This document shows, piece by piece, positions 7,443 to 37,161 of a DNA stretch of 37,161 bases. Source of the stretch: Methanosarcinales archaeon Methan_01 (GTDB taxonomy: Archaea > Halobacteriota > Methanosarcinia > Methanotrichales > Methanotrichaceae). Position numbers and translations under genes: made by a program. Numbering within the stretch: position 1 is the stretch's first letter; the number at the start of each line of letters is the position of its first letter. The notes below the pieces were generated by a model, which was given only the letters and a program-made list of their open reading frames with translations, was not told the DNA's origin and did not search any database. Location of the stretch: assembly GCA_001602645.1 (NCBI GenBank), contig LUYE01000028.1:1-37161 (forward strand). The letters run 5' to 3'.

Positions 7443-8261
7443 ATGGGGTTGAAGCTCAACCTTCTGGCGCGCGCCCTTGGCGTCGCCGTCCTCTTATCCT
7501 CGGCCCTCGGCGCTGACTCCGCCGGGTTCGGGGTATCGGGGGCCATATTAAAGGCCGAAGCTCTTCCAGGGGAAGAGATCCGCCACCAGATGGTGGTGAC
7601 GGTCGCGGAGGAAGGTTCACCCCTGGAGCTGGCTGCCGAGGTGGTGGGGTTCGGCCAGGCCCTGGACGGCGGACCATTTAGGCTTGAGCCCGAGGACGAC
7701 GCCTGCCCCCATTCCGCCCGCGAATTTCTGAGGGCATCTCCGGAGAGGTTCCATATCGAGCCCGGCTCCTCCGAGGGCCTTCTCTTGGAGGGCGAGATCC
7801 CTTCAGATGTCGGGGCTGGCGGAAGATACGCCCTCGTCGAGATCAGAACCCTTCCCGTCGGCGATGGACCCCTCGGCATCGCCTTCACCGTATACGTCCC
7901 GATCTATCTGACGATCTCTGGGACGGAGCTGGTGGAGGCCGGCGAGATCACAGCCCTCGAGGTCGAGGAGGGGCCCTCGGGAGGTTTGGTGGCGTCATTG
8001 ACCTTCAAGAACACCGGAAACCACCACTATCGGCTTCGGGCTGGGGCCGTCCTCAGAGACGAAGGAGGGAAGATCCTGGCGGCGGGCGAGGCCCCTCTGG
8101 AGGAGGCCTCCATAATCCCCACCGCGTCGCGGCTCTTTGAGATCCGCCTCGATGGGGCGGGGGATCTCTCCAAAGGAGCCTTCCTGGAGGCGAGGGTGAC
8201 CTCGGAGGACGGCAGAGCCCTGGACGAAGATGAAGTCGCCTTATCCGGAGGTCTTCCATGA
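7443..8261 (+). CDS. Secreted DUF916-like protein, copy 2
   Basis: 272 residues: a signal peptide (LLARALGVAVLLSSALGADS), then the same two-domain plan as the protein at 5919. Shared blocks are LPGEEIRHQMVVTV, CPHSAREFLRASPERF, IEPGSSEGLLLEGEIPSDVGAGGRYALVEI, YLTISGTELVEAGEIT and FKNTGNHHYRL. Conservation of PxSAxxFL, VPxDVGxGGRYA and NTGNxHY across both copies shows that these are paralogues under constraint. The stop overlaps the start of the 1082-residue protein (ATGA at 8258-8261), so the two should be translated together. This coupling suggests that it works with, or escorts, the large surface protein. No membrane anchor is seen. Confidence 0.78.
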   Translation: MGLKLNLLARALGVAVLLSSALGADSAGFGVSGAILKAEALPGEEIRHQMVVTVAEEGSPLELAAEVVGFGQALDGGPFRLEPEDDACPHSAREFLRASPERFHIEPGSSEGLLLEGEIPSDVGAGGRYALVEIRTLPVGDGPLGIAFTVYVPIYLTISGTELVEAGEITALEVEEGPSGGLVASLTFKNTGNHHYRLRAGAVLRDEGGKILAAGEAPLEEASIIPTASRLFEIRLDGAGDLSKGAFLEARVTSEDGRALDEDEVALSGGLP

Positions 8262-11200
8262 CGATGGGCGGCGGGAACGCCCGGCGAGCGGCCGTCATCC
8301 TGTTTTTGGCCCTCGTCGCCATCCCCGGCGCGTCGGCGGGCCTCTACGTCGTGGACGTCGATCTTCCGCAGCAAAGCCCGGTCCACAACGTCGTAGTCAC
8401 CTACAACCTCCCCGCGGGGGTGATCTACAAGATTGGCAGCTTCAGCGCGAGCGGTGCTCCGATTTCATCGCATCAAGAGGTGGTGAGCACGCCCAACGAC
8501 GGGTCCGCCCCCGTCACCGTAACCTGGACCATCGAGAGCGTCTACAACACCGGGAACCAGGACATAGAGATCCAGTTCGACGGCATCGTCGCTGATGTGG
8601 CAGGAAACCAGGACGGAGTCCAGCTCCCCCCCGGCACCGTATCGTATACCTACGACGGCGGGCCGGGAGCCAAGACGGGGCGATCGCAGCCGACGGAGAT
8701 AGTGGAGCCGGATCTCAAGATCGAAAAGAGGCGCATAGGCAAAACCGGCAATCAGATCGATTATGAGCTTTCGGTCTACCACACCTTAGAGAGCCATTCA
8801 GACGCCTTTGACGTGGTGATAACCGACGTCGTACCTCAAACTAACAGATATAAACCTAATTCGATAATAATTTTTTCTGGTCCAACGGATCCATTGGGGA
8901 ATCCATTGGGAATCGCAGATGATACTGCCGTCCCTGTTCTAACGTGGTCTTTCGACAAGATTGATACAACATGGAAGGACGATAATAAGGTAAGGCTCAG
9001 ATACTCGATATTCGATAATCAACAGGGCTCCCCTTCGCCAACTACCAGAACCCTGGACTGGACCAGCGCCGAGGGTGATGGTTACGGCCAAGATAGGCAC
9101 TACTCGCTGGGATATGACGAGGAGTTTTTGATGGTGTCGATCTCCTGCGATGCTGAGAGCGTGTCGGTGGGTAAGGTGATCACCTACACCTACACCGTCA
9201 CCAACGTCGCCTTTGGCACCACCATAACTGGCATTACGCTGGTCGATAACAGGCTCGGACCAGTAACACTGAGTACGACGTCCCTGGGATTCGGAGGATC
9301 CGCCACCGGCACCAAAAGTTATACAGTTCAGGAGAGCGACTATCCCGGCCCCCTGGTGAACACCGCCACCGCCACCGGCACCTATAGCGGCACGATCGTC
9401 ACCGCAGTGGGCACCATCTCCGTCCCCTTCGGGATCGATCCCATAGACGTAACGAAGACGGCCCTCAACAAGACCGTCGCGCGGGGCGAGAGCGTCACTT
9501 ACATCATTGAGATCTGCAACAAATACGGGACGAATGAGCCGGGAGCGCCCGCATACGAAGTTGTCGCCGAGGACATCTTCAGCCATGAAGTGGAGTTCGT
9601 CTCCGCCGATCCCCCTCCAGCCCGCGATTACAGCGATGGAGAGCGCTTCCGCAAGATCGCTTGGACCTTGGGTACGATTGATGATAAGTGTGAGAAGATC
9701 ACCCTCGTGGTGAAGGTCCCCGAGAGGCAGGACTTCGAGTTCTCCTCGGAGAGCGGCGTCACCGGAGAGGGTTTCGTCAACGCCGCCAACCATTACACCA
9801 CCTCCCTCGACCCCTTCCCCCTCACTAACTGCATCTACGTCACCTACCTCAACGGGACGAGCAATAAGTACGAGACCATCTCGGACTGCGAGACCGTGGC
9901 CGTGGGGAGGGCGGGGACCGAATTGTCCACCCGGGAGCACGGCTCCGGCGCCTACGAGAGCGACGATCTGGTGAAGATGGAGACGGAGAACGACCTCATC
10001 TCCCTGGAGAAGGATATGGCCGCGACCTACGGGGCCACCACCCTGACACTGCCCAGAAACAGGACCGTCACCTACTCCTCCCGGTGGACCGGGGAGGCTT
10101 CGGCCAAAAACCGCGTCACCGGAGCTTCCATGGCCGAGTCTTATCGATATGCCACCACCCTCGACCGGGAGTCGGAGTTCTTCTTAAATGAGAACGAGTC
10201 GGAGATGGCGATCAGCGCCGAGTTCGACGGGACGGCTCAGATCGGCTTCTTGAAGATGCCCACCAACACCTCCACCTTCAAGGCGACCCCCATCTTCGAG
10301 TCCCGGGAGGATTACGCGGGAAGCTTCCGGATCATCGAGCGGGTCGACGAGTACGGCTCCGCCGCCGCCTCGAACAAGTCGGCAGAAGGACTGGGGATTG
10401 TCGTCGTCGATAAAAGGATCGGCGATGCCCAGAGGAGCTATGAGTCGGGCACAGGCAGCTACTCATCCGAGGAGCTGGTCAGGACCTACACCAACTACAT
10501 CGCAAAGGATATCCGCCTCAAATACTCGCCGACGGGCCTGAGGCTCACCGATGGCGCGTCGGCCAACGCCTCCGGAAAGTGGAAAGAGGGGATCAGCTCT
10601 GCGACCCCCGGCACGAGCCTCATCGCTGAGGAGTATTCGAGCATCACTGAACTTGATAAGGAGACGGTGGCTCGGGGCCTGAATGAGATGGAGACGGAGG
10701 CGAACTTTTCGGGCCGGGCGAGGTACAGGACGATCTTCTACGGAGCCTCGCCGGCCGGATTGGATAATACATCGACGAACGAATCAGAGAATGCATCCAC
10801 GAACTCATCGGCGAAATCTCGGCTGGTGCCCACCATCGACTTCGACGAGATCTACGAGGGCGACTACTCGATCGCGAGGCGGATCCTGATATCCGGAGCT
10901 TCGAGGTACGACCGGCCCCACCTGAACGTGACCAAGGGCTTGGAGGGGATCGAGGAGGAGACGCTCCCCTGGGGGAGCGATGAGCCTCATCTTCCGGGGG
11001 AGACGAAGACGAGGAAGATCGCCGCCTACGCCATCGGGATCGAGAACGACGGCAACCGGGCCCTGGGGCCGATCCGTGTCCAGGACCTCTTCCCGAAGGG
11101 TGCCGGCTACCTCAGATCCTCCCTGAGGCCGACGGAGATGACGGCCGAAAGCTGCAACTGGACCCTCACCCACCTGGCCATCGGAGATGTCGCCGAGATA

Positions 11201-11506
11201 GAGATAGAGCTGGACGTCACCGGCTGCCCCGGTCCGGAGCTGACGAACCGCGTCTTCGTCTGCGCAGGCGAGGGCGACGAGGAGATCTGCGCCGCCAACT
11301 TCAGCTCCCTGGAGATCGGCTGGCTATCGTGGCCTTCCGACGAGATCTCGGGAGCGAAGGCCGGAGAGCTCGACGAGGCAGAAGGGGGGCGCGAGGACTG
11401 CGGCGGATGGAGCCTCCCTAGCTGGGATTTCGAGCGCCTTGGGAGCGGAGCCGACCTGGCCTGCGAGCCCGCCTCTGCCGAAGACGACCTCGGGCTCTGT
11501 TCCTGA
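8258..11506 (+). CDS. Large secreted surface protein with DUF11-type domains and an internal duplication
   Basis: 1082 residues with a signal peptide (AAVILFLALVAIPGASAG). Residues about 25-530 contain DUF11/COG1361-type beta-sandwich domains, for example ESVSVGKVITYTYTVTNVAF, LVNTATATGTYSG and KTVARGESVTYIIEICN. Residues about 557-705 and 727-888 are two copies of another module (SGAYESDDLV/TGSYSSEELV, then SRWTGEASAKN/GKWKEGISSAT, LDRES/LDKET, and DYAGSFRIIER/EGDYSIARRIL). A DUF11-like domain with paired Cys follows (960-1030). Between the module halves is a run of N-x-S/T sequons (near 10760-10810), as expected for a heavily glycosylated surface protein. No C-terminal anchor or sorting motif is visible. 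Start ATG 8258 has GGAGGT 6 bases upstream inside the previous gene. It is presumably a cell-envelope structural or adhesion protein. Confidence 0.8.
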   Translation: MTMGGGNARRAAVILFLALVAIPGASAGLYVVDVDLPQQSPVHNVVVTYNLPAGVIYKIGSFSASGAPISSHQEVVSTPNDGSAPVTVTWTIESVYNTGNQDIEIQFDGIVADVAGNQDGVQLPPGTVSYTYDGGPGAKTGRSQPTEIVEPDLKIEKRRIGKTGNQIDYELSVYHTLESHSDAFDVVITDVVPQTNRYKPNSIIIFSGPTDPLGNPLGIADDTAVPVLTWSFDKIDTTWKDDNKVRLRYSIFDNQQGSPSPTTRTLDWTSAEGDGYGQDRHYSLGYDEEFLMVSISCDAESVSVGKVITYTYTVTNVAFGTTITGITLVDNRLGPVTLSTTSLGFGGSATGTKSYTVQESDYPGPLVNTATATGTYSGTIVTAVGTISVPFGIDPIDVTKTALNKTVARGESVTYIIEICNKYGTNEPGAPAYEVVAEDIFSHEVEFVSADPPPARDYSDGERFRKIAWTLGTIDDKCEKITLVVKVPERQDFEFSSESGVTGEGFVNAANHYTTSLDPFPLTNCIYVTYLNGTSNKYETISDCETVAVGRAGTELSTREHGSGAYESDDLVKMETENDLISLEKDMAATYGATTLTLPRNRTVTYSSRWTGEASAKNRVTGASMAESYRYATTLDRESEFFLNENESEMAISAEFDGTAQIGFLKMPTNTSTFKATPIFESREDYAGSFRIIERVDEYGSAAASNKSAEGLGIVVVDKRIGDAQRSYESGTGSYSSEELVRTYTNYIAKDIRLKYSPTGLRLTDGASANASGKWKEGISSATPGTSLIAEEYSSITELDKETVARGLNEMETEANFSGRARYRTIFYGASPAGLDNTSTNESENASTNSSAKSRLVPTIDFDEIYEGDYSIARRILISGASRYDRPHLNVTKGLEGIEEETLPWGSDEPHLPGETKTRKIAAYAIGIENDGNRALGPIRVQDLFPKGAGYLRSSLRPTEMTAESCNWTLTHLAIGDVAEIEIELDVTGCPGPELTNRVFVCAGEGDEEICAANFSSLEIGWLSWPSDEISGAKAGELDEAEGGREDCGGWSLPSWDFERLGSGADLACEPASAEDDLGLCS

Positions 11507-21862: not shown

Positions 21863-24800
21863 TCAGCTGAACTGGAGCTTGCAATCCATCGAAGCCTCCA
21901 TCATGTAGGCCTCGCCCGGAATCAATGGCTCGCTCCTCTCGACGTGGACCCATTTTCCGTCCCTGTAGTGCCAGAGGAATGCGGAGACTATCCCCTCCTC
22001 GACCGCCTCGGAGTAGGCATACCTCTTGTGGTTCGCCCTCACGGTGACGTTCGCCATAACGACCGTCTCGTTGGTGGGGGTTCCCACCAGGTTCCACCCC
22101 TCTTTCAGCTCCACCATGTAGGGGAGGTCCACAGGCTTCCCGGCTATCTCCAGGGAGAAGCTCTCCAGGCCGTCTATTATGTACCCCCTTCCAGGCTCTA
22201 GGTCGGTGACGTTGGCGGCGTGGTCGTCCTTGATGGTGTAGTTCCAGCCGTCTCCTGAGAGGACGAATATCCCCCGGTAGCTCTTTCGATCTAGGATCTT
22301 GGAGATGGAGGAATCTTTCGGCTTCAGGTGGAGGGAGAAGGGGGTCCAGCCCACCGAGACGTTGACGACCTGGACCTCACCAGGGACGACCCGGTACTCG
22401 ACGGTGTAGTTCCTCGCCTCTCCCAGGGTGGGGCTCAGAACCGGCCAGATCACCCGCTTCTCCGATCCTATCAGCTCCTCGCCGTGCCAGACCGCCCGTC
22501 CCCTCTCCTTCACCACGATCTCCTCGGCGTCTCTGGCGATCTTCACCTCGCCGATGAGGGCTGGAGGGGCGTTCAGGCTGAGATACCCGTCGGACGAGTC
22601 CTCTAGAATCCAGTAGATCCAGTCGCTGGACCACTCCGACGTAGGCTTGATCGATACCGAGACCTCGTTCGATTCGTTCGAATCGGTGACTTCGGAGGTC
22701 TCGATCTCGTAGGGAAGGTCCGGAGTCTTCGGGATCGTCGGCCTGAAGGCGGGATCTCCAAAGAGGGCGTATATGCTCGTCGTCTGGTTGAGCATATCCT
22801 CGATGGAGATGTACCAGGGCTGATATTCGTCGATCTTTTCGAGATCGATCCCCTCGGTGGCCAGGATCTTCGATACGTAGAGGTTGTTGGCAGCCATCAT
22901 CGCCTCGCCGATGGTGGCGTTCTCGAAGACGAGGGCCTGATGCATCCTTCCAGCGTAGTCGTCGGATACGAAGATCCAGGAGTTGGCGCTTGGCCCAGCG
23001 TAGTTCGCGGCCCCCGCCCTCAGGAAGGCCAGGGCCATGGAGTCCTCCAGCCTCGTCGGGATATATATGTCGATCCCGTCCCTGTAGGCGAAGACCTGCC
23101 CCTTCAGCTTGGTGGTGAGACAGGCCGATGTGGTGGTAGTCTGGGGGGCGAGGGTCATCTGCTTGACCTGCTCCTCGTCCAGGATCTGGTCCATGAGGGC
23201 CCAGATGGAGAGCTGCCAGCCCCAGTCGACCCCATGATAGTCGAAGTAGACGATGTTCTGGCCGCTGTTCATCTTCGATGAGACCCTCTGGTAGGTCGCC
23301 TCCTCCCACCGGAGGTTCTCGGCGTTCAGCCCCGCTGCCCTCAGGTACTCTCCAATCCGGAGGGGTATCGGCGACTGGGGCCATGTCGTGGGGTAATCGG
23401 CGGGCGAGGATATCACCAGGGCGGAGTTGCGCCATTCGCCTCCGATCCTTTCGTAGGCGAAGGTCCGGGCGACCGTCTGGGAGGCGTCGTAGACGCTGAG
23501 GCCGATGATCCTTCCGGTCGCCACGTCCTGGTAGCCGTCGTCGTCGAGCTCGATCCCGTACTCGCGGCATATATCGTACTCAAAGACCCCCGACGACTGT
23601 CTTCCTCCCGTCGATATGACGGGGAGTGACCCGGGGCCGCCCACCACCATCAGGTACTTGGGCGATATCCCCTGGTCCTCCACCAGGGCCCGGAGGTCCG
23701 CCTCCACCGCCGATGGATTGAGGTTCTGGGGGTCTGTCGCCGCGTCGAAGACGACCCCCCTCCTCGCCCCGGCCATCTGGGCAGATAGGAGGGATAGCTT
23801 CGGGATCTTGGTGTGGCTGAAGGCGGTGACGTTTATGGGGCTGGCAGACGTGGCGACGGTGACGGTGAAGTTCTTTGTTCGGTGATCTATCGTCTCAGAG
23901 CTCGTCCAGGCCTCGAGGTTGAAGGTCCAGGTCCCCGGCCTTCCGAGGAGGACGGTGGCGTTCGAGACCTTCCCGGGGCGGGAGTCGGTGAAGACCTGGC
24001 TGGCGGCCTTGCCATCGGGGTTGTAGTAGTTGAGAACGACCCTGGCAGGCTGCCTCGTCACCTCCCAGGATACGATGGCCCATCCAGGCGACGTCCTTTC
24101 TGGAAGGGTTATGTTGATGAAGGGTCCCTCGTCGAACCTCCTGGTTCCCGCGTCTTCCGTCTCCTCGTCATCGTCACTGTAATTCACGGAGATGCCCCCA
24201 TCCAGGGGCTGGGTCCATCCGGCGTCAAGGGCGTGGAGGATCATGATCTCCAGGTTAAGCGTGGCGAACTCCCGGGGCGCGAGGCTGTCGATCGTCCAGT
24301 TCAGCCTCGTCCCGCTGAAGAAGGCGCTGTCGGGGGTCGGCGCAAGCCCCGTCGATGGGTCTGTGAGGTCGACCTTCCCCGACGGGGAGCTCCACCAGGC
24401 CACCATCCTCCCCGGGAGGATCAGGTCGGTGAAGGTGACGTCCTTCAGATCCTCCTTGCCGCTGTTCTTGAGGGTGATCTTCAGGCGTACGATCTCTCCC
24501 TCCCGGTCGGAGGGTATCTCAGCGGGGTTCATCTCCACCTCCAGGACGAGGTCTTCGCCGACGTTCGTCCTCGTAAGATCCGACTTGGGCTTCGGGCTGA
24601 GGAGGGAGATGTCGCGAGAGTTGGTGAGGACCACCGACTCCACTTCGTCTCCTCTGGCCTTCATCTCCCGGATCAATAGCTCCCTGTTCCCCTCCAGGAT
24701 CGTGAGGTTCAGCTCGGCGAGCCGGGACCTGACGCCGTCGGAGATGGGGCCTGATGTTATCACCTGTCTCGACCCGAGGCGGGCCAGGTCCTCCTCCGTG

Positions 24801-26275
24801 GTGTTCGTCAGATCTTCACCGACGAAGAGGATCGGCCAGTTGAGGTAGGATGCGATGGATGCTGCTGTGAGCCCGGCGCTGTAGTTGTCACCGACCAGGA
24901 CCGCCCCTGGCGACTTATCCCACTTCGAGGCGACCTTCGAGGCCATCTCGAAGCTGTCGTTGTACTCGATCACCGCGTCGGAGCCCCAGAAGACGTCCCC
25001 TATCGCCAGGGTCCGTCCATCGAGCCTCTCCATAAGCCACTGGACCGAGGAGGACGGAGGCTGGAGCTCCGACCAGAGGGGGGTGTAGACGACGTCGTAC
25101 TCGAAGACCATCCCCGAGGCCCCCTCCTCCGCCAGATCTTCGATCCGGCCGACGGTCCCCTCTACGTTCTGGGTGGATATGGTGTACTCGATGTAGTCGT
25201 CGCTGAGCCTGACGAAGACGGGAGCCCCTGCCATCGACGAAACCACTCTCATATCCGCCGGCTCGACGGGGCTCACCACCACGAAGTCGGCCCGGTCCGA
25301 TATCTCCGCGAGGTTATACCCCTCGCTCCGATCGAAGGGGTCGCCGAGGGCCACGCCGAGCTTTGCGGGGCCCAGCTCCCGGGCCATCCTCCCGACCTCA
25401 TCGATGATCTCCAACAGCTGCTCCTCCTTCCACCGGCTCCAGAGCTGGCGGTTGTAGCTGCTGGACCCCGCCCTGGAGAGGTCTACTCCCGTATCGTTGT
25501 AGAACTCCTCTTTGCATACGTCGCAGAAGCAGTGATTCTCGTCAAGAAACCCGAAGTTGTAGAGGACGACTCCGTCGGCCTGGTAATCGTCGATCACCTC
25601 TTCGACACGGTCGTAGAGGAGATCTCTCGCATCGGGGTCCACGGGACAGAGCCTCTCGGAGACGACGACCCCCTCGGAGAGGACGGCGATCTGGGCCGAG
25701 TCGGGGTAGAGCTCCCGGTACAGATCCGGGACAGGACCGGATCTGTTGGCGGATTTCGTCTCCCCGTCCTCCGCGAGCATCCCCTGCAAAAGGCTTAAGG
25801 CGGCTCCTTTATCCGCCGCCGCCAGGACTTCCTCCTCGGAAGCTCCAGATTTGGAGTCATCGGGAACCTCCAGGGTGGCGGTGACGTAGGCTTTGATCCC
25901 CTCCTTCTGAGCAGCCTTCACCAGGCTCTTGGCGAGGTCCCCCTCGGCGTCGATCACCAGGGCCGAGACGTTTGCCGCCGCCATGGCGTGGAGGGTGGAG
26001 GTGGGGCCGTACCGCTCCAGGTCCGCCTGATCGATCCATCCGAGCCTCTCTTCTGCCCGGATCTCTCTCGGCATTATGAGGAGGGGCCTCCTCTCTATAC
26101 CGGCATCCTCCGACCAGATGGCAAGAGGCGTCGAGGCGACCGCTGCTCGCCAGTCGTCAGCCCCCACCAGGATGATCTCCTCCAGGGAATCCGATTTCGT
26201 CCCCCTATCCATCTGGCCGTCGGCGGCGATCGCGAGGATCGCAAACAACGCCACGATCGTCAAAAAGCCTCTCAT
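21863..26275 (-). CDS. Giant exported protein with gingipain-like (C25) domain, CWB2-like and TIM-barrel-like regions
   Basis: 1470 residues with a signal peptide (FLTIVALFAILAIAADG). Residues about 30-170 and 425-535 look like cell-wall-binding (CWB2) repeats. Residues 180-420 resemble a glycosidase-type TIM barrel, with DGVVLYNFGF and C-x-C-x2-C in HCFCDVCKEEF. Beta-sandwich domains follow (590-830). A clan CD peptidase-like region spans about 850-1140, with His1014 in YFDYHGVDWGW and Cys1052 in TTSACLT, as in gingipain C25 enzymes. The C-terminus has VELKEGWNLVGTPTNET, common in methanogen surface proteins. The ATG abuts the stop of the 528-residue gene, with GGAGGTG inside that gene, so the pair is coupled. 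No anchor helix. Protease activity is inferred from the His/Cys pair. Confidence 0.8.
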   Translation of the reverse strand: MRGFLTIVALFAILAIAADGQMDRGTKSDSLEEIILVGADDWRAAVASTPLAIWSEDAGIERRPLLIMPREIRAEERLGWIDQADLERYGPTSTLHAMAAANVSALVIDAEGDLAKSLVKAAQKEGIKAYVTATLEVPDDSKSGASEEEVLAAADKGAALSLLQGMLAEDGETKSANRSGPVPDLYRELYPDSAQIAVLSEGVVVSERLCPVDPDARDLLYDRVEEVIDDYQADGVVLYNFGFLDENHCFCDVCKEEFYNDTGVDLSRAGSSSYNRQLWSRWKEEQLLEIIDEVGRMARELGPAKLGVALGDPFDRSEGYNLAEISDRADFVVVSPVEPADMRVVSSMAGAPVFVRLSDDYIEYTISTQNVEGTVGRIEDLAEEGASGMVFEYDVVYTPLWSELQPPSSSVQWLMERLDGRTLAIGDVFWGSDAVIEYNDSFEMASKVASKWDKSPGAVLVGDNYSAGLTAASIASYLNWPILFVGEDLTNTTEEDLARLGSRQVITSGPISDGVRSRLAELNLTILEGNRELLIREMKARGDEVESVVLTNSRDISLLSPKPKSDLTRTNVGEDLVLEVEMNPAEIPSDREGEIVRLKITLKNSGKEDLKDVTFTDLILPGRMVAWWSSPSGKVDLTDPSTGLAPTPDSAFFSGTRLNWTIDSLAPREFATLNLEIMILHALDAGWTQPLDGGISVNYSDDDEETEDAGTRRFDEGPFINITLPERTSPGWAIVSWEVTRQPARVVLNYYNPDGKAASQVFTDSRPGKVSNATVLLGRPGTWTFNLEAWTSSETIDHRTKNFTVTVATSASPINVTAFSHTKIPKLSLLSAQMAGARRGVVFDAATDPQNLNPSAVEADLRALVEDQGISPKYLMVVGGPGSLPVISTGGRQSSGVFEYDICREYGIELDDDGYQDVATGRIIGLSVYDASQTVARTFAYERIGGEWRNSALVISSPADYPTTWPQSPIPLRIGEYLRAAGLNAENLRWEEATYQRVSSKMNSGQNIVYFDYHGVDWGWQLSIWALMDQILDEEQVKQMTLAPQTTTTSACLTTKLKGQVFAYRDGIDIYIPTRLEDSMALAFLRAGAANYAGPSANSWIFVSDDYAGRMHQALVFENATIGEAMMAANNLYVSKILATEGIDLEKIDEYQPWYISIEDMLNQTTSIYALFGDPAFRPTIPKTPDLPYEIETSEVTDSNESNEVSVSIKPTSEWSSDWIYWILEDSSDGYLSLNAPPALIGEVKIARDAEEIVVKERGRAVWHGEELIGSEKRVIWPVLSPTLGEARNYTVEYRVVPGEVQVVNVSVGWTPFSLHLKPKDSSISKILDRKSYRGIFVLSGDGWNYTIKDDHAANVTDLEPGRGYIIDGLESFSLEIAGKPVDLPYMVELKEGWNLVGTPTNETVVMANVTVRANHKRYAYSEAVEEGIVSAFLWHYRDGKWVHVERSEPLIPGEAYMMEASMDCKLQFS

Positions 26276-27862
26276 TCATCCCACCTCCTCGATGGTCAGG
26301 CCCGCCTCTCTCAGCGATTCCGCCGCCGCAGGATCTACTCCGCCCCCCCAGATCAGGGCCCTGGAGAGGCCGGATCCCATCATCTCGCCTAGGGCCGACG
26401 CGCTCTCCTCCGAGAGGGGAGAGCCGCAGATCACCAGCGGAGCTTTGATCTTCTTCGCCTCTTCGTAGGCGGCAAAGGCCTCCAGCTCGTCGGTTCCGGC
26501 GATGACCACCGCTTCTGCACCCTCGGGCCAGAAGGCAGAGGCGAAGAGCCACGACGTCTCGCAGATATCGGATCCCGCCATCCTCTCTGCAGGCATCATA
26601 TCCAGGATCCGCTCTTCGACCTCGGCGGAGACGACCGCCTCGTCGCCCAGGATTATCACCTTGGCCAGGGGCAGCTCTTCCAGCATCTGGATGTCCTCTT
26701 CAGAGAGCTCGCCGCCCCTCAGGGTGATGACGGGTACCGTTTCGTTCGCCACCCCCTCGGCGTAGGAAAGGGCTAGGGCCCGATATAGGAGGCCGTCACC
26801 GGTGACGATGGCGAACCGGACCGAGTCCACCACCAGAACCTCCGCCCCCTCCGCCGGCAGGGGGATCTGGTAAGAGTCGTGGAGGATAAACTCGACCCTG
26901 TACTTTCCAGGCTTGGTGGCCAAAAGCGTGAACTCGCCGATCCCGGACCGCCCCTCCCCGACCGATATGACCTGGCTTTGGGGCATCACCAGAACCTCCT
27001 GAGGCGCCACCACCTGGATCGATATCCTCTCGTCGACGTTCAGCTTTATCCTTATCGATCCGGCGTGAGTTCTGTTGGTCACCATCACTGTCGGCAGGTC
27101 GATGATCGCCTCATACTGGCGGATCTCCTGGTTCACTTCGATCTCCGCCGTCACCGTGGCGTTCTTCGAGGTGTCGCTGAGGGAGGTCGCTTCGATCTCG
27201 ATCGCTCGGAGCTCTCCAGCCCTCTCGCCCACGATCTCCAGGCCGAGGACCCGGCTCACCCCCGAGGAGAGGGTGAGGTTGTAAGGCATCTCCATCGCCT
27301 CGGTCCCGTCGAAGAGGGTCGCCGTCCATAGGGGAGGGAGGCGTGGCGTATCGATGGATATGACGTCCTTGAAGCGGCCCGCGTTTCTGACGTAGATCTC
27401 AAACTCTGCGGGCTCATCCGGATCTGCGGTCGCGGTGGACGATCTCGAATCGTCGATGCTGAGGCTGACCCCATAGCTCTCCTGGGCGATGACCTCCACC
27501 TCAAACTCCACCCGGAGCGGCAGAGAAGATACTTCATCGAAGAAGTAGACGAATCCGGGATAGGTTCCAGGGCTGATCTCCGGGGGCGTCGAGAAGTTTA
27601 TATCGACCTCCACATCTTCCTCAGGTCCCAAGACCTCAAACTCCGAGATCTCCATCGTGACCAGCTCCTTCGCCTTTCCGGCTACGGGGATGGTGGCGAT
27701 CCCGAAGATCGGCTCGTCGCCAGAGTTCGTCAGGGTTAGGGTTCGTTCGGTCAGCTCACCGGGATGGAGTTCCACTTCGAATCGGTCTATATCTGCTGTC
27801 AGCTCTGCCGCAGAAACGGCGACCAGCAGCAACGGGATGGCGAGCAGGCTTATCAGCTTCAT
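26276..27862 (-). CDS. Exported protein with beta-sandwich domains and C-terminal CWB2-like domain
   Basis: 528 residues with a signal peptide (ISLLAIPLLLVAVSAAEL). Residues 22-130 are a COG1470/NEW-like beta sandwich (VELHPGELTERTLTLTNSGDEPIFG), and more such domains follow to about 340 (FEIYVRNAGRFKDVISIDT). The last 180 residues resemble cell-wall-binding repeat 2: RFAIVTGDGLLYRALALSYAE, LPLAKVIILGDEAVVS, EAVVIAGTDELEAFAAYEEAKKIKAPLVICG. The stop touches the start of the 1470-residue gene, and both proteins share CWB2-like parts, so they probably act together at the envelope. No membrane helix besides the signal. Function unknown beyond surface association. Confidence 0.8.
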   Translation of the reverse strand: MKLISLLAIPLLLVAVSAAELTADIDRFEVELHPGELTERTLTLTNSGDEPIFGIATIPVAGKAKELVTMEISEFEVLGPEEDVEVDINFSTPPEISPGTYPGFVYFFDEVSSLPLRVEFEVEVIAQESYGVSLSIDDSRSSTATADPDEPAEFEIYVRNAGRFKDVISIDTPRLPPLWTATLFDGTEAMEMPYNLTLSSGVSRVLGLEIVGERAGELRAIEIEATSLSDTSKNATVTAEIEVNQEIRQYEAIIDLPTVMVTNRTHAGSIRIKLNVDERISIQVVAPQEVLVMPQSQVISVGEGRSGIGEFTLLATKPGKYRVEFILHDSYQIPLPAEGAEVLVVDSVRFAIVTGDGLLYRALALSYAEGVANETVPVITLRGGELSEEDIQMLEELPLAKVIILGDEAVVSAEVEERILDMMPAERMAGSDICETSWLFASAFWPEGAEAVVIAGTDELEAFAAYEEAKKIKAPLVICGSPLSEESASALGEMMGSGLSRALIWGGGVDPAAAESLREAGLTIEEVG

Positions 27863-28409: not shown

Positions 28410-29180
28410 TTGAATAAACAGATGGGATTTGTCATCGCCTTGGCCGCCCTCGTCTCGATGGCGGCGATCTCTTCAGCACAGCCGGGATATTCGATGCCGC
28501 ATTCGGACTACGATCCGTGGTCTGAGATGGGCGGCTGGTCGGGTTCCTGGGACGATAGCTGGTCGTTTTTGACGGGATACAGCTGGCCATATGAGTGGCG
28601 GGAGCCTTATACGACGACGGAGCCCACCACCTGGCCGACGGGGGATTACTCGGATGGCGAGCCGACGGCCACCAGGCCCGGAGGCTACCAGCCGGAGAGC
28701 ACGCCCTCCGCCTCGACGGGGTCTCCGATATCTTACCTCTCTGATGGCCTATCTCTCTCGGAGCATGAGGTGAGCAGCCTTCCGGGCGGCTCGAGCCTTC
28801 TGGCTCCAGGGGGGCCCGGCTCGCCCGTGGCTTCTGGAGGGCCGGAGGTTTTCCGGAGCTACTACGGCGGGACCGAGGCTTTCCGGAGATACAGCGGCGG
28901 ACTCCAGCAGTGGATCTACTACAGCGGAAGGTGGACCTACGGTCCCGCAGCTCTCTGGTTCGGCCAGCAGACGAACACCATAATAAGAAATGATCAGTAT
29001 CAGGTGATCTGGTCCTACGAGAGGTACCCCAACGGATACGAGGCGTGGCAGTACTGGGGGTACTGGTACCCAGGCTACCGGCACGCCTGGTTCGGTGCGG
29101 ATTACAAAGGCTGGCACCAGATCGCCGTTTGGGGGAGCCGCTCGGGATGGAGCAACCCCATATGGGTCTATGTCTGGTGA
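28410..29180 (+). CDS. Exported Trp/Tyr-rich protein
   Basis: 256 residues: a signal peptide (MGFVIALAALVSMAAISSAQ), then low-complexity Ser/Gly/Pro/Thr sequence rich in Trp and Tyr. In the middle is a near-repeat, GGPEVFRSYYGGTEAFRRYSGG. The C-terminal 100 residues are extraordinarily aromatic: QWIYYSGRWTYGPAALWFG, EAWQYWGYWYPGYRHAWFG, WSNPIWVYVW. No Cys and no membrane helix. The start is TTG with GAGGTGG 5 bases upstream; ATG 28422 lacks a ribosome site but would also keep the signal peptide. Preceded by a structured leader. It may be an envelope or sheath structural protein, or a carbohydrate-binding protein (aromatic platforms); I do not recognise a family. Confidence 0.75.
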   Translation: MNKQMGFVIALAALVSMAAISSAQPGYSMPHSDYDPWSEMGGWSGSWDDSWSFLTGYSWPYEWREPYTTTEPTTWPTGDYSDGEPTATRPGGYQPESTPSASTGSPISYLSDGLSLSEHEVSSLPGGSSLLAPGGPGSPVASGGPEVFRSYYGGTEAFRRYSGGLQQWIYYSGRWTYGPAALWFGQQTNTIIRNDQYQVIWSYERYPNGYEAWQYWGYWYPGYRHAWFGADYKGWHQIAVWGSRSGWSNPIWVYVW

Positions 29181-29861: not shown

Positions 29862-29970
29862 GGGAAGCCCGCTCCGGGATGGGTCTTTAATGGATCATCC
29901 ATGATTTGAGATCTCGGTCAGCGGCAAAGGCTTTATCCTCGGCGTGCCCTCTGAAGCTGGGGGATTTCTC

Positions 29971-30483
29971 TTGATTTCGGCATCGTCGAGGTCCAGGGGG
30001 CTGTATCTCGCCTCATGTATTCTCTTATCCATCGGCGCCTGCCCGGCTTCTGCCGTCGACGAGGGTGGGACGGCGGCAGGTCTCTTCCGGATCGAGGATG
30101 GGGCTGTCGTCATCGACTGGTCGCCGGGGGTCGAGTTCGGCCTAGACTCTCCAGGCGCTGGGGAGAACCTGACGGCGGCCGGAATGGGCATGGAGAACCA
30201 TGGCCTCAACGCGACCCTCGGAGCCCCCCAGGCAGGAGAAGGATCTTCAGATCGGGGCGGGTCCGCCCCCCTCAGCCCTGGCGTCGTGGGCGCCTATGCT
30301 GGCCTCAGCGGCGCCCACCTGGGATGGGCCTCCGGAGGCCTCCAGGCCGGCGGCACCGGCCGCCCCGCCGAATATGGCCGGAGGGTCACCGACATCGTGG
30401 GGATCTTCTCCATCGATATGACGATCAAGCTAGGATCGAACAGCTCCTCCCCCGGGAGCGGGGAATGGATCGGCTGCCCCTAG
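29971..30483 (+). CDS. Small secreted Gly/Ser/Ala-rich protein, hypothetical
   Basis: 170 residues from a TTG start. A signal peptide (GLYLASCILLSIGACPASAV) precedes a Gly-rich body: FRIEDGAVVIDWSPGVEFGLDSPGAGENLTA, APLSPGVVGAYAGLSG, DIVGIFSIDMTIKLGSNSSS. Third-position GC and the signal peptide support a real gene. The other frames here are also open because of the GC content, which lowers certainty. The TTG has GGGGGAT 5 bases upstream; a GTG at 29944 would lengthen the N-terminus without a ribosome site. No family recognised. Confidence 0.55.
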   Translation: MISASSRSRGLYLASCILLSIGACPASAVDEGGTAAGLFRIEDGAVVIDWSPGVEFGLDSPGAGENLTAAGMGMENHGLNATLGAPQAGEGSSDRGGSAPLSPGVVGAYAGLSGAHLGWASGGLQAGGTGRPAEYGRRVTDIVGIFSIDMTIKLGSNSSSPGSGEWIGCP

Positions 30484-32516: not shown

Positions 32517-32789
32517 TGACGCTGAAGGGGATGGTACGGATTCGGACCCGGCCCACCGGATGGCGGCGGCCCCGGCTGGATCAGAGTAGAGGTAACGCCC
32601 CGAAGGCTATCCCTGAGATGGTGGCGAAAGGCACCATCCCAAGAACTTTTTTCGATTTGTCTTCTGCAGGATATCGCAAATTAATAACGAGAGGATCGGA
32701 TCTGACGCTTTCGAGAGCTATTTCGAGCTTACTATGAAAAAATCCATATACCAATACGCATCTAAATCAAGGATGAAGAAGCCCAGGTG

Positions 32790-33965
32790 ATGGACTTGAA
32801 GTCGATTATAGATGAGGCTCTGAACAGAGCTGAGCTCGAGGGCCGTACAGCTCCGCCGGGGGCCATGGAGAACGACGACGATCTCGAAGATGAGAGAGTT
32901 CGGTCGAGGGCCATGGAGAACGATGACGACCTGGTGGCGGTTCTGGAGCAGCTCACAACGGTTATTCGGGTAATCGGCTGCGGCGGGGGTGGGTCCAACA
33001 CCATCGAGCGGCTCGCCGAGACCGGGATCGAGGGTGCCGAGCTCTTCGCCATGAACACCGATGCTCAGCACCTTCTCCACATAAACGCAGACCGGCGCCT
33101 TCTGATCGGGCGGAGGACGACCCGGGGTCTGGGGGCGGGTAGCCTCCCATCCATCGGGGAGGAGGCGGCCAGGGAGAGCATCGACGAGATCAGGGCAGCC
33201 ATAGAGGGGGCGGACATGGTCTTCATCACCTGCGGCCTTGGAGGTGGGACCGGCACCGGGGCGGCTCCGGTGGTGGCGGAGGTGGCGAGGGAGATGGGAG
33301 CCCTCACCATCTCGGTGGTGACCCTCCCCTTCGCGGCGGAGGGGGCGATAAGGATGGCGAACGCCGACGTGGGGCTGAAACGGCTCCGCGAGGTCTCGGA
33401 CACCGTCATCGTCGTACCCAACGACCGGCTCCTGGAGGTCGTTCCCGATCTGCCCCTTCAGGCCGCCTTCAAGGTGGCGGATGAGGTGCTGATGCGTTCG
33501 GTCAAGGGGATCACCGAGCTGATCACCAGGCCAGGCCTGATAAATCTGGACTTTGCCGACGTCAGGACCATCATGTCCAACGGGGGCGTGGCCATGATCG
33601 GCCTCGGAGAGGCCCAGGGGGAGATGAAGAGCAAGGACTCGGTGATAAAGGCCCTAAGAAGCCCCCTCCTGGACGTGGACATCTCAGGGGCTACCTCGGC
33701 CCTGGTCAACGTGGTGGGAGGAACGAATATGACGATCTCCGATGCCGAGACGGTGGTAGAGGAGGTCTACGAGAGGATCAATCCGGAGGCCAGGATAATA
33801 TGGGGGGCCCAGATCGACCCGAGCCTCGAGAACGGCATCAGGACGATGCTGGTGGTCACCGGGGTCTCGTCTCCTCAGATCCTGGGAAAGGAAGACTCTA
33901 GACAGAGCCGGATCGTGTCCAAGCACGGCATAGACTTCCTCAGAAGACGAGGGACCGACATCTGA
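32790..33965 (+). CDS. ftsZ: Cell division GTPase FtsZ
   Basis: 391 residues. Tubulin-family marks: [12 protein letters not shown] (nucleotide binding), MNTDAQHL, the signature [30 protein letters not shown], and the T7 loop [11 protein letters not shown], whose Asp acts on the GTP of the next subunit. The order is that of archaeal FtsZ1, with an N-terminal helical tail before the GTPase core. That tail contains a duplicated AMENDDDL 16 residues apart. FtsZ forms the cytokinetic ring at the membrane. ATG 32790 is preferred over the adjoining GTG 32787. The C-terminus is short (FLRRRGTDI). Preceded by about 270 bases with no gene, including AT-rich promoter-like sequence around 32700-32770. 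Confidence 0.96.
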
Positions 33966-34361: not shown

Positions 34362-34866
34362 ATAGAGACCACCACACATCCTTTCGCCAGAAGGCCCTCC
34401 CTGGGCAGCATAATCCCTCAGCCAACTCTTTTTCATTTTATATTACTAGCAACGATCCTCTCGTATATGAACCTGTTGATTTAAAATAACTGATGATTGA
34501 TCCCGAACCAATGTCATGTCTTATCAAGCCATGGCATTTCATCTGATGACGTGGCATATATCTTGGGATTCTTTGGAGGCCCCGCCTAGCCATCCTTGGA
34601 TAAAAAATGAGATCCCCCTCGAACTTCCATATATCTGGGCTAAAATGGATTGGGGAGGTCGCCAAGGCCGCCTTCTTCAAGGGCGACCCTCCGAGCGGCT
34701 CCAGCACGGCAAGGCCGCTCCCGCCATCGCGTCTCGGTCTGGTGGGGCCGAAGGCGGGTCGGCCGGGGCGCAAATGATAACATGCACCATGTCAATCGAT
34801 GGAGTTATAAGGTATAGAGATCGCTTAATAAATATTGTTATGGATGCTGAGACTGGATGTGAAGAT
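34362..34866. other. Intergenic region upstream of the winged-helix/ligase-like operon
   Basis: About 500 bases with no convincing gene. TTTAAAATAA near 34479-34488 may be a promoter for the DUF1699 gene on the minus strand. TTAATAAATATTG near 34826-34838 is a TATA-like element for the winged-helix gene. An open frame from 34516 runs through the region but has no family similarity before about 34867. Confidence 0.5.
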
Positions 34867-35166
34867 ATGGTGACAGAGAAGGTGAAACGGGAGCTTGAGA
34901 TGCTTAAAAGGCACCTGATAATCTTGAAGTACGTCGTGGAGAACGAGCCGATCGGCATCCTCAAGCTGGCTGAAGAGACGGGTATTCCCAGCCACAAGGT
35001 CCGATACTCTCTCCGGGTTCTGGAGCAGGAGGGGCTCATCGCCGCCTCGGCGCCGGGAGCCGTCACCACTGAGCAGACGGGGACCTTTCTTAGAGATCTG
35101 GACCAGGCCATAGATCGGCTCCAGGAGATGGCCCGAGGGCTCAAAGATATCAAGATAGAACGGTAG
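34867..35166 (+). CDS. Winged-helix transcriptional regulator, small
   Basis: 99 residues. A helical start (VTEKVKRELEMLKRHLIILKYVVENEPI) leads into a clear winged helix: GILKLAEETGIPSHKVRYSLRVLEQEGLIAASAPGAVTTEQ. A C-terminal amphipathic helix (FLRDLDQAIDRLQEMARGLKDI) may dimerise. No ligand domain. ATG 34867 has GGATGTGA just upstream; ATG 34840 is an alternative that would add 9 residues. The ligase-like gene begins 8 bases after its stop, so they form an operon. Likely a DNA-binding regulator; targets unknown. Confidence 0.78.
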   Translation: MVTEKVKRELEMLKRHLIILKYVVENEPIGILKLAEETGIPSHKVRYSLRVLEQEGLIAASAPGAVTTEQTGTFLRDLDQAIDRLQEMARGLKDIKIER

Positions 35167-35173
35167 CCTTTCG

Positions 35174-36487
35174 ATGCTCCCTTACCTAGAGATCGCAAGG
35201 GCTCTGGAGGATGCCTCCAGAGAGGAAAGGAGAGATGCCAGGGCTGATCTGTTGGCATCTCTTTTGAAGGCCCTGCCCCCCGAGTCCGTCCGTCCCGTCG
35301 CGAGGCTGCTATCGGGCCGACTCTGGCCCCCCTGGGAGCCGCGGGAGATGGGGATAGGGCCCGAGACCCTGGAAGAGGTCCTCGAAGAGATCTCCGGGCA
35401 GGTACCATCCCCCGAGGCGAAGGGGGCCGACCCGGGGGATCTGGCGGAGAGGATGGTTCAGGGCCGGTCTCAGCGGACCCTCTCCCCGACGACGCTGGAC
35501 GCCCTCCAGGTCTACGAGGCCCTCCGCCAGATATCATCTCAACGTGGGGTGGGCTCGACGTTCAGGAAGAGATCCATCCTGAGGGGCCTTCTTCTCAGCG
35601 CGTCGCCCCTGGAGGCCAAGTACATTGCCAAGACCGTCCGTGGGAGGATGGCGGTGGGGCTGGGGCCGTCCCTGTTGGCGGAGGCCATCGGTAGGGCCTT
35701 CGGCGTCGATCCGCTCCAGGTGAAGAGGGCGTACTCCTACAATCCTGATTACGGGACGGTCGCCCTCCACGCCCTCCGGGGGGAGGTCTGCGATCTGAGG
35801 CTCTCCCCTTCACATCCCTCACGGCAGATGGCGTTCCGGCGGGATGAGCACCCCTGGGATGCGATGGGGGTGGTAGGTCGGAGAGCTTATGTCGTCAGGT
35901 ACGGTGGGCTGAGGGTTCAGGTCCATAAATTGAGCGACCAGGTCTTCTTCTATACAAGCCAGCTTCGAAACGTCACCCATCCTCTTCGGGACCTGGCGGA
36001 GGAGGTGATCCGGGTCAAGGGAAACTTCATCTTGGAGGGGGAGCTAATCCTGGTCGAGGATGGTAGGATATTGCCCCTATCGGTGATCGTCGGGAGGATC
36101 AACCTCCGGGGAAGGTCCAGAGGCGAGGCGGTTTCGTCGCTGGCGGCATCGGATCTCCTATACCTGAACGGAAGGGACCTGATCGACGAGAGCTATGCCG
36201 AGCGGAGGCGGTCCTTGGTCCAAGTCCTGAGGAACGTGGCAGGAAGGCCCCTCGTTTCCAGGGTATTCCTCGCCGAGGAGGAGGTTTTAGAGGATCCAGA
36301 TGGGGCGAAGAAGTTCCTCGGAAGGTCTCTGGATCGGGGGTTCCGGGGGGTTATAATGCGCGATCCCGAGGGAGCTTATATTCTGGGCGGCATCAGTCGA
36401 TGGGACGAAGTGATATCAGAGATGCCGGAGGATCAAAATCCCCTCCAGGAGGATCGCCGGACTTACCCGGGAAGGGCGGGCCGTTGA
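35174..36487 (+). CDS. ATP-dependent DNA ligase homologue lacking catalytic motifs (pseudoenzyme)
   Basis: 437 residues against about 560 for archaeal ligases. The N-terminal DNA-binding domain (1-215) is recognisable: VARLLSGRLWPPWEPREMGIG, SILRGLLLSASPLEAKYIAKTVRGRMAVGLG. The adenylation domain keeps its outline but not its chemistry. Motif I, usually K-Y-D-G-x-R, is RYGGLR (242-247), so the AMP-accepting Lys is Arg (AGG at 35897-35899) and the Asp is Gly. Motifs III and IIIa are near-normal (TSQLRNVT, FILEGELI). Motif IV is FRGVIMRD rather than YEGVMVK, and motif V lysines are absent. The C-terminal OB domain is missing. The frame is uninterrupted, so it is probably made, perhaps as a DNA-end or nick-binding protein. 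Coupled to the winged-helix regulator. Confidence 0.82.
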   Translation: MLPYLEIARALEDASREERRDARADLLASLLKALPPESVRPVARLLSGRLWPPWEPREMGIGPETLEEVLEEISGQVPSPEAKGADPGDLAERMVQGRSQRTLSPTTLDALQVYEALRQISSQRGVGSTFRKRSILRGLLLSASPLEAKYIAKTVRGRMAVGLGPSLLAEAIGRAFGVDPLQVKRAYSYNPDYGTVALHALRGEVCDLRLSPSHPSRQMAFRRDEHPWDAMGVVGRRAYVVRYGGLRVQVHKLSDQVFFYTSQLRNVTHPLRDLAEEVIRVKGNFILEGELILVEDGRILPLSVIVGRINLRGRSRGEAVSSLAASDLLYLNGRDLIDESYAERRRSLVQVLRNVAGRPLVSRVFLAEEEVLEDPDGAKKFLGRSLDRGFRGVIMRDPEGAYILGGISRWDEVISEMPEDQNPLQEDRRTYPGRAGR

Positions 36488-36504: not shown

Positions 36505-36677
36505 CAGCGGCGTTTTCCTGGAGGCGCTACGAATTGATCTCGGGATCTTCTTTACAAGTTCTAAATAGACATCTGCAGAAGCGTTTTCTGAGTTAATAGC
36601 CCACGAAAGTCTATATATGTGAAGAATACTCAGTTCCTTGAGAGCCGGTCAGCAGGGCGGTTCTTGTCAGAGGGGAG

Positions 36678-36687
36678 AATATTTAAG
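36678..36687 (+). promoter_or_regulatory. TATA box of the repeat protein gene
   Basis: AATATTTAAG lies 46-55 bases before the ATG at 36733, in an AT-rich stretch. A strong ribosome site, GGAGGAAGG (36719-36727), follows 5 bases before the start. Both suggest a highly expressed gene. A second TATA-like CTATATATG lies near 36611. Confidence 0.55.
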
Positions 36688-36732
36688 CTCAGTATGTGAA
36701 TAAGTTTAGAGAGGTATCGGAGGAAGGATTAG

Positions 36733-37161
36733 ATGACCAGAGGATTCTTGGCGGTTTCGGCGGCCTTTCTGATGGCTGCCATCATGTTATCGCCGGCGAT
36801 GGCATATACTATTTGCAGTTCAGCAGCTCCATCTTACACCATAGGATCGGGAACGCCTCATCAGTATTCAATAGGAACCATTGGCCTTGAGGCTTACTCG
36901 ATCGGTTCGGGAAGCCCCGAGCAGTACTCTGCCGGCGCCAGCGGCCTTGAGGCTTACTCGATCGGTTCGGGAAGCCCCTACCAGTACTCGGCCAGCACCG
37001 GCGGCATTCAGACCTACACCTTCGGCTTGGGAACACCTCATCAGTACAGCATCGGGTCTGGAGCCCTTCAGACCTACTCCATCGGCATGGGAACCCCCGC
37101 CGCCAGCACGGGATCCTGTCCTGTAGTGGCGCCAGCAGTCAAGGCCGAGCCGGAGGAGGTT
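36733..37161 (+). CDS. Secreted Gly/Ser/Tyr/Gln repeat protein, candidate sheath or amyloid-like structural protein (3' end outside window)
   Basis: 143 codons are visible and the frame is still open at the window edge. A signal peptide (FLAVSAAFLMAAIMLSPAMA) is followed by at least four 20-residue repeats. Their consensus is Y-S/T-I/F-G-x-G-S/T-P-x-Q-Y-S-x-G/S-x-x-(A/G)-L/I-(E/Q)-(A/T), starting at residue 35. A fifth, partial copy leads into a Pro/Ala region with one Cys. The Gly, Ser, Tyr and Gln content and evenly spaced Tyr resemble functional amyloid and fibre proteins. Methanotrichaceae make an amyloid sheath from a major sheath protein, but I cannot confirm that this is it. ATG 36733 has GGAGGAAGG 5 bases upstream. 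Confidence 0.75.
   Translation, partial: MTRGFLAVSAAFLMAAIMLSPAMAYTICSSAAPSYTIGSGTPHQYSIGTIGLEAYSIGSGSPEQYSAGASGLEAYSIGSGSPYQYSASTGGIQTYTFGLGTPHQYSIGSGALQTYSIGMGTPAASTGSCPVVAPAVKAEPEEV
36835..37074 (+). repeat. Four 60-base tandem repeats
   Basis: Units at 36835-36894, 36895-36954, 36955-37014 and 37015-37074, each coding for 20 residues, with a partial fifth from 37075. Units 2 and 3 are nearly identical over their first 24 bases (TACTCGATCGGTTCGGGAAG shared), which points to recent unit exchange, whereas units 1 and 4 have drifted. Confidence 0.85.

Follow-up and report, generated by a model that had tools for sequence, protein, structure and literature searches.

A family-specific secreted protein with a tyrosine decapeptide array and differing C-terminal domains in Methanotrichaceae

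The stretch of DNA analysed here (the window, 37,161 bases) ends inside an open reading frame rich in Gly, Ser, Tyr and Gln repeats, and this locus raises the question of what such a gene encodes in a Methanothrix-type methanogen. These archaea rank among the major sources of methane formed from acetate, and their filaments have been linked to anaerobic granulation. To our knowledge, few of their surface parts are known beyond the SH and S-layer proteins. A preliminary description had proposed a major structural sheath protein or functional amyloid, the repeats of which would stack into the fibres of the sheath itself. We arrive at another reading, to which we give about an even chance: the gene would encode a secreted modular envelope protein specific to Methanotrichaceae, with the array anchoring or assembling it and the C-terminal domain displayed as a surface or sheath-associated adhesin. 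Newly recognised here are the decapeptide register, the FAS1 tail, the family-wide presence with exchanged C-terminal domains, and the conserved promoter and leader.

The gene and its tyrosine decapeptide array

The reading frame opens at ATG 36733 and runs for 143 codons, with no stop before the window end (all features given here are on the forward strand). The window covers bases 1 to 37,161 of a contig of 60,372 bases (C19) and is directly followed by a scaffold gap of 32 Ns (C19:37162-37193), so the gene is broken by the assembly and this is not its genuine end. Past the gap, the gene evidently resumes in C19 with a linker made of a 33-bp array (37194 to about 37330), a FAS1 (fasciclin) domain beyond the window edge (37335-37685; Pfam PF02469, E = 3e-33, 115-116 bits against a cut-off of 22) and an acidic Pro-rich tail, with the stop at about 37787. 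We infer that both halves belong together because the gap, whose stated length breaks the frame, falls within the 33-bp array, and because uninterrupted relatives (G001, G003, G004 and G005) show the identical order of parts. The rest of the gene, which the preliminary description had left to be read, thus makes it a FAS1-domain protein, both from the C19 sequence past the gap and from the relatives.

The protein starts with a predicted signal peptide of 24 residues (36733-36804, cleavage between A-M-A and Y), strongly conserved family-wide. An array of ten decapeptides begins exactly at this predicted cleavage site (residues 25-124, 36805-37104), in line with the secreted repeat protein described earlier. 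Tyr is found at residues 25, 35, 45 and so on to 115, every interval being exactly 10, and most units follow the pattern Y-[S/T]-[I/A/F]-G, with Cys28 in unit 1. S, G, Y, T and A together make up about two thirds of the composition. Self-identity of the array is 0.36 at lag 10 and 0.55 at lag 20, values reached by 0 of 20,000 shuffles, and TRF on the DNA also gives a period of 60. From the exact Tyr spacing and these identities, each 60-nt unit is a pair of 10-residue units. The 20-residue, 60-base repeats first described are therefore real, but they form five 60-nt pairs of two decapeptides each, the first of them diverged (only 50-58% DNA identity to the other pairs). Units 2 and 3, previously called near-identical, share 82% identity and an identical 36-nt core, for which that wording is somewhat strong. 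The end of the repeat domain, a Cys at residue 129 and the start of an acidic-proline linker occupy the last bases of the window (37105-37161).

Tyr intervals are exactly 10 in 78 of 78 cases in genus g1 and 16 of 16 in genus g5 (genera carry our own labels), and 10 is the most frequent interval in genera g2 and g6. Repeat number does vary, as had been suspected, and differs between species: complete arrays in g1 and g5 contain 6, 8, 10 or 12 decapeptides, always an even count. In most genera outside g1 and g5, the array is degenerate, with few Tyr repeats; the role of the module therefore does not depend on strict repetition. Two cysteines, one at mature position 4 and one just past the array, are either both present or both absent; the pair occurs in no genus other than g1 and g5, and two g1 genomes (G004 and G007) lack it.

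AlphaFold gave a mean pLDDT of 37-39 (window protein and five relatives; one full-length relative), with no confident fold for the array, so its beta structure and self-assembly are something we can only infer. This low confidence, together with the low-complexity composition and the lack of a membrane anchor, would suit a soluble or gel-forming matrix protein, in which a disordered array condenses or sticks in a prion-like or mussel-type manner and the C-terminal domain binds the matrix. On the contrary, an exact 10-residue register over up to 12 units and the even counts suggest a regular fold, and the Cys pair on either side of the array a defined structure; we regard a matrix protein as unlikely. 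The even spacing of Tyr also recalls an electron-conducting ladder in direct interspecies electron transfer, which Methanothrix performs and for which the aromatic-rich MspA was proposed to conduct (PMC10470525). As there is no redox partner, Tyr accounts for about one residue in 10 and most genera keep few Tyr units, this purely speculative idea is hardly credible.

Comparison of the array with solved structures returned weak compositional matches only (designed beta-propellers, E 0.0013; flagellin hook motif, 0.006), and a search for viral relatives found none. As in curli-like proteins, a signal peptide is followed in this gene by regular repeats some 20 residues long. The repeats of the curli subunit CsgA have a similar length, are likewise rich in G, S, Q and Y, and could be strand-turn-strand, but no homology was recognised and the likeness is one of analogy.

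Family distribution, locus and upstream region

Relatives were sought with a profile of the N-terminal part in 50 Methanotrichaceae genomes. The gene was found in 47 of them, the three misses being 56-69% complete, and in 33 of the 33 well-assembled genomes, mostly as a single copy; additional or partial profile matches occur in G011, G045 and G053. Named relatives of the same genus are Methanothrix harundinacea MAGs, Candidatus Methanocrinis natronophilus Mx and Methanothrix sp. MAGs, which places the window in a Methanocrinis-type archaeon; in M. harundinacea 6Ac (G001), the ortholog is located at 533,672 of a chromosome of 2,559,043 bp. Outside the family, a class sample of 188 genomes yielded a single, marginal match (E 4e-4), which covers the signal-peptide part, and none of the 378 non-family genomes in a phylum sample of 393 had a match. 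Being present in every good genome of the family and specific to it, secreted and usually single copy, with an unusual repeat, an exchanged display domain and a highly conserved promoter, the protein offers a concrete candidate for studies of adhesion, granulation or sheath assembly.

Upstream of the array gene are genes for an ATP-dependent DNA ligase (35174-36487), syntenic in most genera examined, and for a winged-helix (HTH) protein (34516-35166) and FtsZ (32787-33965), both also syntenic. The order ftsZ, HTH, ligase, array gene is kept across genera, with a radical SAM gene between ligase and array gene in genera outside g1 and g5.

As for the start of the gene, the strong ribosome site reported before is confirmed: a conserved GGAGG (36719-36723) stands 9 nt before the ATG. 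The reported TATA box needs qualification. Two TATA-like sites are present, AATATTTAAG (36678-36687), which is TATA-like only in g1 and g5, and CTATATATG (36611-36619), and only the latter lies inside a promoter block (GAAAGTCTATATATGTGAAGAAT, 36605-36627) that all genera of the family have kept. Downstream of this block is a leader element, TTCTTGTC-AGA-GGGGAGAA (36661-36679), probably within the 5' UTR. Among the family sequences examined, the blocks at the gene read GAAAGTCTATWTATRYGAAGAAT and then, downstream, TTCTTCTC-(loop)-GGGAGRA. Within g1, identity over the 135 bp ahead of the start codon is 90-98%, as against 49-62% in the adjacent 73 bp and 63-73% in the ligase gene. Promoter and leader (window 36593-36732) are also kept across all family genera more strongly than the adjoining DNA. 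No other copy of the promoter block, with up to 3 mismatches, was found in the organism's own genome, so it does not mark a shared regulon.

In most sequences, the leader element folds into a small hairpin, with one G-G mismatch in the window gene. Apart from an A-U pair in place of C-G in g5, there is little covariation, so the hairpin is no more than suggestive; Rfam gave a chance match only. In genus g2, inspection by eye suggested a mini-ORF within the leader, upstream of the gene (GGAGG-ATG-TTC...); it was rejected, as its ATG is ATA in the window genus.

The conserved gene order, with ftsZ a few genes away, and the fact that plug proteins are unknown (PMC11576556) could point to a division or plug factor, that is, an outer-wall protein for filament septation. 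However, its own strongly conserved promoter sets the array gene apart from the ligase, the neighbours are DNA and regulatory genes, and domain evidence is absent, which leaves this role improbable.

The C-terminal domain and its linker

The C-terminal domain is FAS1 in g1, DUF4430 in g5 and SdrD_B in other genera, the last assigned by domain search in the members scanned and by eye in the rest. Scores in the relatives are 4e-8 for DUF4430 and down to 1e-14 for SdrD_B. Where the C-terminal domain differs, the signal peptide, the Tyr repeats, the promoter and the 5' leader are all retained, and in ligase and FtsZ trees g1, g5 and the SdrD_B genera stay separate groups. Such a swap of FAS1, DUF4430 and SdrD_B at one syntenic locus looks like an exchangeable display domain.

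Most g1 genomes also carry stand-alone secreted FAS1 proteins; in the organism's own genome, the sole FAS1 domain is that of the array gene. The FAS1 of the array protein clusters with the stand-alone secreted ones of its own genus, and in G005 the two are nearest neighbours. Owing to this clustering, it is plausible, with modest support, that the array gene took its FAS1 from a resident FAS1 gene or was converted by one.

Known FAS1 proteins (TGFBIp/periostin, the bacterial 1w7d, plant fasciclin-like arabinogalactan proteins) are comparable in having a secreted FAS1 along with a glycosylation-prone low-complexity region. They differ in that the array gene has relatives at the same locus without FAS1, and we know of no counterpart of the N-terminal Tyr decapeptide array among FAS1 proteins. 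The protein does not conform to an MSCRAMM/SdrD-type adhesin either: SdrD_B is found only in other genera, and the hydrophobic C-terminal membrane anchor looked for in the members was absent.

The linker shows three visible copies of a 33-bp-based unit, VNVTEPEEVPE, each with one N-glycosylation sequon. Sequons exceed shuffled expectation in most members, an excess that the tandem repeats inflate, and the mature net charge is as low as -96 among members. The stalk is probably glycosylated, by the evidence of these sequons. The G022 linker consists of arrayed ALNETV-type hexapeptides, and 29 sequons are found over the whole mature protein. G012 (genus g5) apparently has two DUF4430-like domains. 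The linker that separates them is interrupted by a scaffold gap; here too, the assembly broke within the repeat linker.

Relation to sheath proteins and proposed role

The organism very probably has a sheath, since its genome carries SH homologues, and the earlier assignment to the sheathed Methanothrix-type methanogens is borne out. One homologue (C19:59067-59795) is 78% identical to a probable main SH protein and lies about 22 kb downstream of the array gene; the other is at C19:58171-58872. These two SH-type genes adjoin each other (C19:58171-59795, some 21-22 kb downstream), and a fragment of a further copy sits at the contig end (60316-60372). The core of SH proteins consists of two six-stranded beta sheets; the AlphaFold models of the array protein that bear on such a core have a mean pLDDT of 37-39.

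For the major sheath proteins of Methanothrix, we used G023 (taken as M. thermoacetophila PT; 1,879,471 bases). It has SH candidates near 703-705 kb, which by their position would be Mthe_0667/0668, and, at the place expected for MspA, a secreted ORF of 575 aa and 60,948 Da; MspA has 60.9 kDa (PMC6242892). This ORF gave no blastp match to the array family at E <= 10, and the SH candidates of G023 gave a best E of 0.26 over 28 residues.

The array protein resembles MspA (Mthe_1069, ABK14853.1; Methanothrix thermoacetophila) in being secreted, in belonging to a sheathed methanogen of the same family, and in being rich in small and aromatic residues. Unlike it, MspA has 575 aa without decapeptides and no sequence similarity, and its homologues are found in few strains (PMC11576556), whereas the array gene is in all good family genomes. 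MspA was argued to be a secondary component, with other sheath parts unknown (PMC11576556). SH proteins of Methanospirillum and Methanotrichales, with their cap-domain variants, are also secreted in sheathed archaea and combine a constant core with exchangeable outer domains. The array protein, in contrast, bears FAS1, DUF4430 or SdrD_B and not caps, is usually single copy, and has no detectable similarity to the SH candidates tested.

The case for a major sheath protein or functional amyloid thus comes from the regular 20-residue Gly/Ser/Tyr/Gln repeats, similar to curli-type repeats, and from an organism among the sheathed methanogens, with SH genes. Against it, the protein has no detectable relation to MspA or the SH candidates, its full length is a FAS1 protein with relatives carrying other domains, separate SH-type proteins are present in the same genome, the gene is mostly single copy compared with the multicopy SH genes (PMC11576556), and most genera have few degenerate repeats only. 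We consider this original proposal a poor prospect; as far as sequence comparison goes, the array gene appears not to be a known sheath building block.

As for the modular envelope protein that we favour, export would be by Sec, with cleavage after A-M-A. The Tyr/Gly/Ser/Gln array would then form short beta-strands and, via self-association or binding of a surface partner, keep the protein in place within the sheath or the surface layer of the cell, and the flanking Cys pair, where present, may lock the array by a disulphide. The charged, probably N-glycosylated stalk would display the C-terminal domain to neighbouring cells or matrix, and the displayed domain could be exchanged without altering the anchor. 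Localisation at the surface or sheath is suggested by these sequence features, and an adhesive role for the C-terminal domain by analogy, as FAS1 and SdrD_B domains bind many things. More tentatively, the Tyr module and the conserved signal peptide might represent a new family-specific self-assembling or anchoring domain, a standard socket for swapped adhesion domains at one locus, under a family-wide promoter and mRNA leader. Mass spectrometry of granule EPS revealed a fasciclin-domain protein of M. concilii (PMC6367495); it need not be the array gene product, since family members in that genus carry SdrD_B.

Lastly, putative surface proteins occupy much of the window. Very large putative secreted proteins (1082, 1470 and 528 aa) are encoded at 8258-11506 and 21863-27862. 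A protein rich in Trp, Tyr and Pro (28410-29180), probably secreted and of no Pfam family, is kept in the genus near an SH-like ORF. At 29944-30483, a secreted ORF with no Pfam match has 60 C-terminal residues like the SH C-terminus (44% identity, E 9e-7).
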